Shown here: in pieces, positions 5,458 through 29,219 of the stretch
Position numbering within the stretch: position 1 is the first letter of the stretch
Layout of the letters: each line of letters begins with the position of its first letter
Origin: Terriglobia bacterium
Lineage (GTDB): Bacteria; Acidobacteriota; Terriglobia; Bryobacterales; Bryobacteraceae
Assembly (NCBI GenBank): GCA_020073145.1
Contig: JAIQFS010000005.1
Coordinates: 62,001-126,000, forward strand
Length of the DNA: 64,000 bases
Direction of reading: 5' to 3'
The notes under the pieces: generated by a model
Told to the model about the DNA's origin: nothing
Database searches by the model: none
The model's input: only the letters and a program-made list of their open reading frames with translations
Made by a program: the position numbers and the translations under genes

Positions 5458-7565
5458 GAAAACTACTCATAGGGTTGGCACTCGCGGCGGGAATCGGGTG
5501 GGCTCAAACCCAAGTAACTACACAGGCCGGGTTTAACACCTGTGCGGGCACAGCAGGCGCGGTCTGCAACGTCCACAGCAATGCGAGTGGGGGGCAGGCC
5601 AGTTACACCGCTCCGACCGTAGCCAGCGGCAGCGTGGGGGCGGTCACTACTCTTCAGGCGAACTCTGGCGAAACCGTAACGATCACGACCGGGTTCAGCG
5701 TAGCGGGCAAGTCCTATATCCGCATCACGGGATTCCAGGGCACAATCAGCGGAACTTGGATCTCCGCCGACGCCAGCACGAACCATGTCCTGATCGACAA
5801 CAATCATGTTGTCAGCAGCAGCGGCGGCAGCCTATGGCGCAACAGCGATCCGGGCGGGGCGTCGGACAATGCGATTGTAAATAACTACTACCAGATCACG
5901 AGCGCCCCGGCGAACAATGTTGGGATCTATTTGGCCGGTAGTCGAAACCTGATGGATCACAACGAACTGATTAACACAGCAGGGGATTGCCACGACATTT
6001 TCGGCGACCATCTCGTGATCCGTAATACCTACTGTCACGAATTGAACGAATCCAGCGGCCAGCACATCGACTTCATTCAGGAGCAACCGTCGCCGCCAAA
6101 CGATCAGTTCATCCTCACGGAAGGCAACATCGAGAAAAACTGCCACGGTGGGTTAAACTGTCATTTCATGGAAATGCGCGGTGACAGTTCCCTCCAGTAT
6201 ACGAACAACATCGTCCGATTCAACTACGTGAACATCACCGACAGCGGCGGAGTGGATAACGGGTCGGGGAGTGGCGATGTCGTTCTGAAAACGCAGGTTT
6301 ACAACAACACACTGACCCAAATCGCCAGTCAGGTCCTAAGCTGCAATGGTTCAACTGCTGGTGGAATTTCGGTCAACAACGTGTCCTACCAATCGGCGGG
6401 AGGGGGCCAAGCCTATTCATGCAGCACAACTGGGGATGGCTTCCTGTATCTGGGAAATAACTTTACGGACGGAACTACCTCGTTTTGTGCGGATGGTAGC
6501 CATACTTGTCGCACCGGTAGTCCAGGGTTCGCCAATTACCCGACCGATGGCACATTGACATCAGGATCTCAGTTACGAGGTACGGGCTCCTCTCTCGCCA
6601 CCACCAACGGAACAGGATCGAACAGCCAAACTCTGATTGTCAACAACGGAGCCCCGTTTCAACCGGGATCACTAGGGGGATGGGGGCCAAACTGGCCGAC
6701 CTCTCCTGGCGGACTCGCCACGGTTCTTGGGGACTGTATCCGGGTCGGAGATACGGTCGGGTCGCCCACAACCTGCGTCACCGCGGTCAGCGGCAATACA
6801 ATTACTGTTAGCCCAGCGATCTCGTGGAGCAATGGGGTAGGGGTCTATCTATATAAAAAATCAGATGGCGTTGTTGTGCTGGATCTAGCGAATGCCAAGC
6901 CAGACATTGGCGCTTTTCCGTATGGGATGTCCGCTCCATCGGCTTCCGTCTCCCCCACTAGTCTAGGACCCTGGACGAACGGACAAGTCATCACGTCGGG
7001 TTCGGCGGGCGGAACGCTCACGGCCAGCAATTTTGCGGGTACGGTCACCTGGTCAAAGTTGAGCGGTACTCAGCCAACCGGACTAGCCGGAACCTGTTTT
7101 ACGGGCACCACTGGAACGTCCTGCACGCAGACAGGGACCCTGACTGCCGCGGGCACTTTCACGTTCACGATCAGAGCCACTGACGGAACGAGCACGGTCG
7201 ATACGACGTTCTCTAACGTCGTAGTCAACGCAACGCCAGCGATCACGACCAGTTCGCTACCTGGCGGGACGGTTGGGACGCCGTACTCACAGGTGCTAGC
7301 CACCAGTGGCGGCACTGGGGCGGTGTCGTGTTCGCTGGCGTCCGGCTCCCTGCCGAACGGACTTTCGTTGACGGGAACGGGAAACTGCACCATCAGCGGC
7401 ACTCCCACGGTGGCGAACCTGTTTGGTTTCTCCATTACGCCGACCGATAGCAATTCAGTTGCCGGCATCGCGGCGGCGCTACCGATTCTGATTTCCGGTG
7501 CAGGGGCCGGGCAGGGCGGCTCACTGACGGGAGCGGCCTTAGCCGGCGGCGCCCGAATGCAATAG
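5454..7565 (+). CDS. Secreted right-handed beta-helix protein with C-terminal Ig-like domains
   Basis: A 703-residue protein with a signal peptide (MRKLLIGLALAAGIGWAQ) and an ATGA overlap with the preceding gene. Residues about 80-300 carry the Asn/His-rich coils of pectate-lyase-like parallel beta helices (for example 'NHVLIDNNHVV', 'NAIVNNYYQI', 'RNLMDHNELINT'). The C-terminal part holds at least one putative Ig/He_PIG-type repeat ('GTVGTPYSQVLATSGGTG ... LPNGLSLTGTG ... ISGTPT'). These folds suggest polysaccharide binding or cleavage at the cell surface, but no catalytic residues can be assigned. It is the last gene before a strong hairpin. Confidence 0.75.
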   Translation: MRKLLIGLALAAGIGWAQTQVTTQAGFNTCAGTAGAVCNVHSNASGGQASYTAPTVASGSVGAVTTLQANSGETVTITTGFSVAGKSYIRITGFQGTISGTWISADASTNHVLIDNNHVVSSSGGSLWRNSDPGGASDNAIVNNYYQITSAPANNVGIYLAGSRNLMDHNELINTAGDCHDIFGDHLVIRNTYCHELNESSGQHIDFIQEQPSPPNDQFILTEGNIEKNCHGGLNCHFMEMRGDSSLQYTNNIVRFNYVNITDSGGVDNGSGSGDVVLKTQVYNNTLTQIASQVLSCNGSTAGGISVNNVSYQSAGGGQAYSCSTTGDGFLYLGNNFTDGTTSFCADGSHTCRTGSPGFANYPTDGTLTSGSQLRGTGSSLATTNGTGSNSQTLIVNNGAPFQPGSLGGWGPNWPTSPGGLATVLGDCIRVGDTVGSPTTCVTAVSGNTITVSPAISWSNGVGVYLYKKSDGVVVLDLANAKPDIGAFPYGMSAPSASVSPTSLGPWTNGQVITSGSAGGTLTASNFAGTVTWSKLSGTQPTGLAGTCFTGTTGTSCTQTGTLTAAGTFTFTIRATDGTSTVDTTFSNVVVNATPAITTSSLPGGTVGTPYSQVLATSGGTGAVSCSLASGSLPNGLSLTGTGNCTISGTPTVANLFGFSITPTDSNSVAGIAAALPILISGAGAGQGGSLTGAALAGGARMQ

Positions 7566-28138: not shown

Positions 28139-28414
28139 GTGGAGATCCTGCGACAAGCGATGGCGGTGGCGGCGGTGCTGGCGCTCCTCGGAGGGAGTTT
28201 GTGGTGGCTGCGCCGGCGCGGGTTCGCTGCCGTGGTCCGGCCTCGCCGCGGAGGCCGTCTGTTGAAAACCCTGGAACGCCTGCCGCTCGGCCCGCAGCAC
28301 GCACTGCACCTGGTGCGCGTGGGCGACCGGGTGCTGGTGGTGGGTTGCGCGCCGGGAGGGTGCACCTTGCTGGCCGATGTGGGTCACGAAGCGTCCGGCG
28401 AGCTTCTGCAATGA
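28139..28414 (+). CDS. fliO: Flagellar biosynthesis protein FliO
   Basis: A 91-residue protein from GTG 28139 with GAGGAGG upstream. One transmembrane helix (about residues 8-25, 'MAVAAVLALLGGSLWWLRR') is followed by a small cytoplasmic domain with 'LKTLERLPLGPQHALHLVRV', the FliO pattern. FliO assists FliP assembly in the export gate. Position before fliP supports the call. The stop TGA is embedded in the first ATG of the mini-ORF ladder. Confidence 0.85.
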   Translation: MEILRQAMAVAAVLALLGGSLWWLRRRGFAAVVRPRRGGRLLKTLERLPLGPQHALHLVRVGDRVLVVGCAPGGCTLLADVGHEASGELLQ

Positions 28415-28482
28415 GAGGGGTTCTGCAATGAGAGCGGTTCTGCGATGAGAGGGGTTCTGCGATGAGAGAGGTTCTGCGATGA
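28411..28482 (+). repeat. Four 17-bp tandem repeats making a ladder of 6-codon ORFs before fliP
   Basis: Starts lie at 28411, 28428, 28445 and 28462, and the fifth, 28479, is the fliP start: exactly 17 bp apart. Each unit reads ATG AGA GxG GTT CTG CxA TGA, i.e. peptides MRGVLQ, MRAVLR, MRGVLR and MREVLR, and each TGA overlaps the next ATG as ATGA. Because 17 is not a multiple of 3, successive units use different frames. Each unit also holds an AGAGG-like site 7 nt before the next ATG. The unit resembles the true fliP start (ATGAGACGATTCCTGCG), so it probably arose by repeated duplication of that junction. Confidence 0.9.
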
Positions 28483-29219
28483 GACGATTCCTGCGCGTCG
28501 GCGGCCTGATCGGCCTGGCCGCGCCGCTGCCGGCGCTGGCGGCTCCGTCCTCGCTGCTCTCCTCGCTGGGCATCGGCCCCGCCGCGAATGGCGGCCTCAG
28601 CGTCCCCATGCAGATCGTCATCCTGCTCACCCTGCTGACGTTGTTACCGGCCGCGGTGATGTCGGTGACTCCCTTTCTGCGCATCATCGTGGTGCTGCAC
28701 TTTCTGCGCCAGGCGCTGGGCACGCAGTCGACGCCCTCCAATCAGGTCTTAATCGGGCTGGCGTTGTTTCTGACCATCGTGATCGTGCAGCCGGTGGCGG
28801 CCGACATGTACCACCAGGGGTGGGAGCCGATGGAAGCGGGCAAGCTGTCGGCATCGCAGGCCCTGGACGCGGGGGCCCAACCGCTGCGGATGTTTCTGGC
28901 GCGGTTCGCGCGTGAGAAAGACATCGCGCTGTTCCTCGAAATCAGCCACCGGCCGGCCCCGCGGAACCGGGACGCCCTGGACCTGGTGGTTTTGATTCCC
29001 GCCTACGTTTTGTCGGAGCTGAAGACCGGGTTCCAGATCGGCGCGGTGCTGTTCCTGCCGTTTCTGGTGATCGACCTGGTCGTGGCCTCGGTGACCCTTT
29101 CGGTGGGAATGGTGCAGCTGCCGCCCATCATGATCTCCGCGCCCTTCAAGATCCTGCTGTTCGTGCTGGTGGACGGCTGGAATCTGGTAGTGGGTTCGCT
29201 GATGCGGAGTTTTTATTGA
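28479..29219 (+). CDS. fliP: Flagellar export gate protein FliP
   Basis: A 246-residue membrane protein of the export gate. It has a cleavable-signal-like N-terminus ('LRVGGLIGLAAPLPALAAPS'), then four hydrophobic segments and the family signatures 'VILLTLLTLLPAAVMSVTPF', 'RIIVVLHFLRQALGTQSTPS', 'ALFLTIVIVQPV' and C-terminal 'LPPIMISAPFKILLFVLVDG'. FliP forms the pentameric core with FliR and FliQ. Translation is expected to be coupled to fliO through the 17-bp repeat ladder. Confidence 0.96.
   Translation: MRRFLRVGGLIGLAAPLPALAAPSSLLSSLGIGPAANGGLSVPMQIVILLTLLTLLPAAVMSVTPFLRIIVVLHFLRQALGTQSTPSNQVLIGLALFLTIVIVQPVAADMYHQGWEPMEAGKLSASQALDAGAQPLRMFLARFAREKDIALFLEISHRPAPRNRDALDLVVLIPAYVLSELKTGFQIGAVLFLPFLVIDLVVASVTLSVGMVQLPPIMISAPFKILLFVLVDGWNLVVGSLMRSFY

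Follow-up and report, generated by a model that had tools for sequence, protein, structure and literature searches.

The border between fliO and fliP in the window, the whole 64-kb stretch of DNA analysed here, raises the question of how two neighbouring genes might stay linked in translation when their junction has been lengthened. The window lies on contig C85 of a 6.3-Mb genome (G000), and the gene order is fliN-like, fliO, ladder, fliP, fliQ and fliR, with a Pfam family found for each gene. The gap from the fliO stop to the fliP start is made up of four near-identical 17-bp units (28411–28478, plus strand), which we refer to as the ladder. We find that it belongs to a recurrent group of short stop-start ladders in tandem, and we infer that it functions in translation.

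Architecture of the fliO–fliP junction

Every unit is a closed ORF of six codons whose TGA sits within the ATGA of the next unit, and the reading frame shifts from unit to unit (Table 1). The preliminary description, which had claimed four tandem 17-bp ATG-to-TGA mini-ORFs with ATGA overlaps and changing frames, is borne out by the coordinates; of the span that it gave, 28411–28482, the start is correct, whereas the repeat proper ends at 28478, the fliP ATGA taking up the rest to 28482. The fliO stop (28412–28414) falls within the first ATGA of the ladder, and the ATGs that open the four units are followed by a fifth, that of fliP. Five ATGA links in all, each a 4-nt overlap, join fliO through the four mini-ORFs to fliP. 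Apart from the unit starts and the fliP ATG, the ladder holds no further ATG, GTG or TTG. Sequence differences among the units are confined to two positions, and the first 17 nt of fliP (MRRFLR) are identical to unit 4 at 12 of 17 positions, four of which are the ATGA.

Table 1 Features of the fliO–fliP junction, in window positions.
Feature	Position	Strand	Support
fliO, GTG start, 91 aa	28139–28414	+	Pfam FliO, 1.7e-12; TGA within first ladder ATGA
Partial unit TTCTGCA at the end of fliO, matching the unit tails	28404–28410	+	Tandem Repeats Finder array start at 28404
Unit 1, mini-ORF MRGVLQ, stop 28429–28431	28411–28427	+	Sequence
Shine-Dalgarno-like GAGAGGGG, ahead of unit 2 ATG	28413–28420	+	−7.7 kcal/mol; repeated at 28447–28454
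Unit 2, mini-ORF MRAVLR, stop 28446–28448	28428–28444	+	Sequence
Weak Shine-Dalgarno-like GAGAGCGG, ahead of unit 3 ATG	28430–28437	+	−4.1 kcal/mol
Unit 3, mini-ORF MRGVLR, stop 28463–28465	28445–28461	+	Sequence
Unit 4, mini-ORF MREVLR, stop 28480–28482	28462–28478	+	Sequence
Shine-Dalgarno-like GAGAGAGG, last unit, 7 nt ahead of fliP ATG	28464–28471	+	−8.6 kcal/mol
fliP, ATG start, 246 aa	28479–29219	+	Pfam FliP, 6.4e-74; first 17 nt resemble a diverged fifth unit

The array is well beyond chance. Tandem Repeats Finder gave it a score of 134 (28404–28484, 4.8 copies), the next-best array anywhere else in the window scoring only 48, and in a lag-17 self-comparison the best 64-bp stretch showed 60 matches, a count that never exceeded 37 in 60 length-matched first-order Markov sequences. 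The mini-ORFs are too short for an evident product. An in-frame extension of FliP was rejected, the fliP frame being stopped at 28446–28448 with no start codon between there and 28479; nor is the ladder a coding tandem repeat, since 17 bp is not divisible by 3.

The units carry GAGAGGGG, GAGAGCGG, GAGAGGGG and GAGAGAGG in that order, each 7 nt ahead of the following ATG. Pairing energies, computed against the generally conserved anti-Shine-Dalgarno sequence rather than one taken from this genome, were −2.8 kcal/mol at the first ladder ATG, then −7.7, −4.1 and −7.7, and −8.6 at the fliP ATG. The expectation that each unit has its own AGAGG-like site holds with one qualification, namely that the second site is weak (−4.1 compared with −7.7, −7.7 and −8.6 kcal/mol). 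The median energy of the fliP site in 74 relatives was −7.25, and that of random window positions was −2.8. Judging from the energies of −2.8, −8.6 and −7.25, the last unit supplies a strong fliP site that in most relatives is encoded by the end of fliO.

All 200 shuffles of the junction RNA fold more stably than the RNA itself (z +2.92), and an RNA hairpin element was rejected on these grounds; in part, low structure is what any repeat without self-pairing units would be expected to show. The 17-bp unit, with up to two mismatches, occurs at eight places in the genome, four of them in the array and four single (one with one mismatch, three with two), and the reversed control gave seven. A dispersed element or a scattered DNA-binding repeat was rejected, the unit showing no enrichment elsewhere in its own genome. 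The ladder pattern itself was found at one place only in this genome, the fliO–fliP junction.

The fliO–fliP junction in related genomes

The preliminary description had proposed repeated duplication of the fliO–fliP junction, with a comparison of that junction across related genomes as a check. FliP searches returned 111 loci, in 101 of which fliO was located. Once the window's own copy, 12 duplicates and the 10 loci in which fliO was not located had been set aside, 88 distinct junctions were left for comparison; the second fliP of this genome is among them, and a single genome may be represented by two copies. A plain 4-nt overlap was present in 74 of the 88 (67 by a first count and seven initially classed as 'other'), the start lay at +2 in six, and eight had a different arrangement; the ladder was absent from all 88. 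Likewise, a repeat search of the 111 upstream stretches, of which three without fliO are just 22, 27 and 76 bases long, found the 17-bp array in the window's copy only. Within the genus, the three sister species that gave a FliP match (G001, G002 and G004, one genome per species) have a plain overlap and no units, and a FliP match was not found in the sister species G003. Because 74 of 88 junctions are plain overlaps and none is a ladder, the array is best read as a lineage-specific tandem duplication, which supports the proposal.

A scan for chains of mini-ORFs also covered 916 kb of relatives' sequence flanking fliP and 395 kb of this genome, between genes of at least 300 nt, a threshold that makes the scan blind to the window's own ladder because fliO is shorter than this. 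Chains of one or two overlapping mini-ORFs numbered 11 in the relatives and one in this genome, and no ladder of equal units was seen by eye among the 12; one chain (L096) contains a repeated GTGAGATG motif.

Two further junctions may be recorded here. The second fliO–fliP pair of this genome (L002, contig C21) encodes a FliP of 74% identity and has two in-frame ATGs 12 nt apart at its junction. At L063, a 15-bp repeat of 3.2 copies before fliP (about 5890–5945) is in frame with the gene and would lengthen the N-terminus of FliP; in its relative L067 there is no more than a similar but shorter stretch.

Ladders at other gene junctions in the family

The 237 genomes of the family were searched for four ATGA at fixed spacing, with the reversed pattern as control. 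An array was assigned to a junction when the stop of an upstream ORF of at least 80 codons fell between 60 nt ahead of the first ATGA and 15 nt past it, the last ATGA led to an ORF of at least 100 codons, and no longer ORF spanned the array. Sixteen junction arrays with unrelated unit sequences were found in 11 of the 237 genomes, eight at a period of 14, six at 17 and two at 20. Period 17 matched in six of 399 class genomes and in seven of the 237 family genomes (reversed control, two of 237), and six of the seven family places lie at junctions: the fliO–fliP array of the window, and arrays before fliF and downstream of fliE (L139), before gmk, encoding guanylate kinase (L140), before a thiolase gene (L141), before a polysaccharide export protein gene (L128) and before a methyltransferase gene (L126). 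At period 14, eight of 12 places are at junctions, and at period 20 two of three arrays, one of these before motB; COX3 is also among the genes preceded by such ladders. The downstream gene is reached directly at its ATG in 15 of the 16 arrays and through two more overlapping mini-ORFs in L128. A Pfam family was found in 14 of the 15 downstream proteins tested, with L164 left out. Because such ladders also stand before non-flagellar genes, among them those for guanylate kinase, thiolase and COX3, a design specific to the flagellum was rejected and a flagellum-specific purpose is unlikely.

As with fliO, the upstream stop lies in the first ATGA in 10 of the 16 arrays, and in L145 the upstream ORF runs on to a stop in the second ATGA. 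In the remaining five (L126, L139, L141, L151 and L165), the upstream ORF chosen by the rule stops 15–37 nt ahead of the first ATGA. In L165 a second upstream ORF does stop in the first ATGA, and in L139 and L151 the ORF picked by the rule is probably not the real gene. L126 has no unbroken relay from the upstream gene, because its first mini-ORF (MI) falls short of the next ATG, so that its chain begins at the second unit.

Resemblance between the unit and the start of the downstream gene, as in fliP (12 of 17 positions), was also observed in L143 and L148 (12 of 14), before motB (15 of 20) and before the thiolase gene (13 of 17), while in L150, L151 and L152 it was 7 of 14, as expected from the common ATGA and chance. 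The units of L139, L146 and L148 are diverged, with a mean unit identity of 0.78–0.81. Over the 16 ladders, the Shine-Dalgarno site of the last ATG is stronger than that of the first in 10, weaker in five and equal in one (Wilcoxon p = 0.041, the value for L128 being taken at the last array ATG, although its gene starts at TTG). Many family ladders have weak sites at all steps, and the last-ATG energies of L143, L148 and L152 are −1.5, −1.9 and −2.1.

Four genomes (G193, G296, G531 and G537) contain more than one junction ladder, two or three in each case, a hint of slippage or tolerance specific to the lineage. The array L145 (G331, C55:58692–58807) consists of nine ATGA at 14 bp, with eight identical MRLSQ mini-ORFs before a calcineurin-like phosphoesterase gene.

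Unit length and reading phase

A unit closes on the next ATGA only when its length is 2 mod 3, as is the case for periods of 14, 17 and 20. Under the same rule, the off-phase periods 15 and 16 gave junction arrays in one of 23 rows (23 of 26 period-15 places being classified) and two of five rows, in-frame junction repeats of period 15 being undercounted because the classifier drops arrays inside a longer ORF. One period-20 and one period-16 array were counted on both strands, so that the 23 and 28 rows of the two groups are 22 and 27 arrays; the ATGA pattern was matched on both strands in L163 (G193 C3, 20 bp) and L171 (G193 C46, 16 bp). Periods 14, 17 and 20 were at junctions in 16 of 23 rows, as against three of 28 for periods 15 and 16 (Fisher p = 2.4e-5), or 16 of 22 against three of 27 by arrays. 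With equal exposure, two periods each, the counts were 14 and 3 (p = 0.013). Against period 16 alone the difference was not significant, either by rows (14 of 19 versus two of five, p = 0.29) or against two of four arrays (p = 0.56).

The reversed control matched in seven genomes at period 14, two at period 17 and one at period 20, compared with 10, seven and three for the pattern, and off phase in five versus four at period 16 and 12 versus 23 at period 15. Because the reversed control, the places of which are unclassified, also matches, the case rests on position at gene starts and not on the number of arrays. In-frame junction repeats do exist, as in L063, L200, L202 and the 18-bp repeats before gmk. 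These results suggest, but do not prove, a phase filter by which arrays of 2 mod 3 are kept.

Ladders beyond the family

Outside the family, three of 298 genomes of the class match at period 17; L129 (G188) is formally assigned to a junction, through short, low-complexity ORFs. Period-17 junction arrays were found in six of 237 family genomes and in one of 298 in the rest of the class (p = 0.048). Among 326 genomes of the phylum, 31 matched at period 14 and about as many (29) in the reversed control, most of the places being 7-bp microsatellites. Classification covered 31 places in 30 of the matched genomes, one locus each, and assigned five to junctions, three of which are ladders by eye. The upstream stop lies in the first ATGA in L694, 27 nt earlier in L698 and 54 nt earlier in L707, where the links are TGATG.

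Viral contigs yielded 75, at least 120, at least 119 and 109 loci for periods 17, 16, 14 and 13. By the same rule, three of 65 places at period 17 and four of 98 at period 13 were at junctions and, among the matches listed, three of 110 at period 16 and seven of 118 at period 14. There was no phase preference in the viral contigs (for periods 16 and 14, among the matches listed), and period 17 had no clear excess over off-phase periods. The clearest ladder among them, on the minus strand near 7337 of L272, has four identical mini-ORFs (MRTSTI) flanked by ORFs of 146 and 105 codons.

A general route is suggested by L694, L698 and L707 outside the family together with L272 on a viral contig. Tentatively, and at somewhat less than even odds, ladders may be recurrent junction elements of the Acidobacteriota and beyond, in which the relaying phase is kept, coupling is kept despite lengthening, new Shine-Dalgarno sites are brought in and copies can change.

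A proposed route from fliO to fliP and its alternatives

The reading that we favour, with a probability of roughly 0.6, is that a coupled junction was duplicated by slippage and that its 2 mod 3 units relay ribosomes across the gap to fliP. A plain 4-nt stop-start overlap of fliO and fliP would have been duplicated in tandem by slippage, and each copy, with its single ATGA and a length of 2 mod 3, would form a closed mini-ORF and restore the stop-start overlap. A ribosome finishing fliO would then arrive at fliP after five rounds of termination and reinitiation, the ladder bridging a 68-nt displacement that would otherwise uncouple the two genes, unless the ribosome were carried over in this way or fliP were started anew. 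In a study on Escherichia coli, a 38-nt gap cut reinitiation by 80–90% for two gene pairs and abolished it for a third, and coupling required no more than the upstream gene's last 15 nt (PMC10666635). Such a loss of most or all reinitiation makes it plausible that arrays in the 2 mod 3 phase would survive. The last unit also provides fliP with a strong Shine-Dalgarno site, which is absent from the end of fliO here. Five successive reinitiations, each below 100%, would cost fliP some of its translation if de novo initiation gave no help, and we infer that the mini-ORFs are translated, possibly with an effect on the level of FliP. The unlinked upstream stops and the result for the viral contigs weaken this reading a little.

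The array might instead be a neutral scar of slippage, a tolerated duplication without a selected role, with idle mini-ORFs and de novo initiation of fliP at the last unit's Shine-Dalgarno site. We regard this as unlikely, if still a serious possibility. In its favour, any duplication of an ATGA junction by a unit of 2 mod 3 gives the ladder form of itself, and fliP has its own strong site at the ATG (−8.6). Arrays of this kind are rare (16 in 237 genomes over three periods) and stand before functionally unrelated genes, viral contigs have no phase preference (periods 16 and 14 among the matches listed), and the upstream ORF of the rule ends 15–37 nt ahead of the first ATGA in five of 16 arrays. 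What a scar leaves unaccounted for are the weak last-ATG sites of L143, L148 and L152, which de novo initiation at a Shine-Dalgarno site alone fails to explain, and the diverged arrays L139, L146 and L148, which retain ATGA at its exact spacing, although four in a row were a requirement of the search.

Two other accounts carry far less weight. In one, which takes up the preliminary description's suggestions of a tuned gate-core stoichiometry and of copy-number variation between strains, the number of units would set the fraction of ribosomes that reach fliP, and slippage would alter this number between strains. Short tandem repeats such as the ladder units are prone to slippage, L145 has eight identical units, and sister species differ in the copies of another junction repeat (18 bp, before gmk), but units are absent from all three sister species in which FliP was matched, and we consider a dose device of this kind improbable. 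That the array arose in assembly or sequencing is hardly credible: tandem repeats are open to mis-assembly, yet these units differ among themselves at two positions, the array takes up just 68 bp of a 183,574-base contig, and nowhere else in the genome is the ladder pattern found.

Relation to known junction elements

The closest precedent for the ladder is the mycobacterial MIRU. MIRU units are about 46–101 bp long, whereas ladder units are 14–20 bp, local and look as though made from the junction itself. The MIRU is described, in passages of PMC12548453, as a short repeated element with an ORF at the start codon and a 4-nt overlap with the gene, the insertion of which is likely of little effect on expression. 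The ladder shares the 4-nt overlap, with coupling here predicted from the sequence, and differs in that MIRUs appear mobile in the same passages (PMC12548453), whereas the ladder unit is not a dispersed repeat. If the analogy holds, ladders would work on the MIRU principle.

Each step of the ladder corresponds to one plain ATGA overlap of the kind described for termination-reinitiation in parts of PMC6728339 and PMC10666635. Most relatives have a single such overlap (74 of 88), whereas the ladder has five in series by way of four tandem mini-ORFs. In bicistronic designs with short upstream ORFs as boosters, an adjoining short ORF raises the translation of the next gene, according to passages of PMC13255528; these designs are synthetic, and a tandem array is absent from the description there, whereas the ladder is a natural tandem array. 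No description of short tandem stop-start ladders was found among the top matches in open-licence PubMed Central. Taken together, the ladders point to a small recurring way to stretch a gene border while both genes stay linked, and they suggest how a coupled junction can absorb an insertion. The unit length of 2 mod 3 provides a simple rule that can be checked in any genome collection.

Copy number at junction repeats

Natural ladders of three to eight steps offer ready-made tests of how many consecutive rounds of termination and reinitiation a ribosome can carry out. At the junction from a yicC-like gene to gmk in 23 genomes of genus g25, a script found four genomes with an 18-bp repeat, one with a three-unit ladder and eight with a plain overlap, and the overlap looks plain by eye in two further g25 genomes. 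The 18-bp repeat is in frame and occurs in two copies in L228, two in L230, one in L231 and three in L232, and these four loci form a natural copy-number series.
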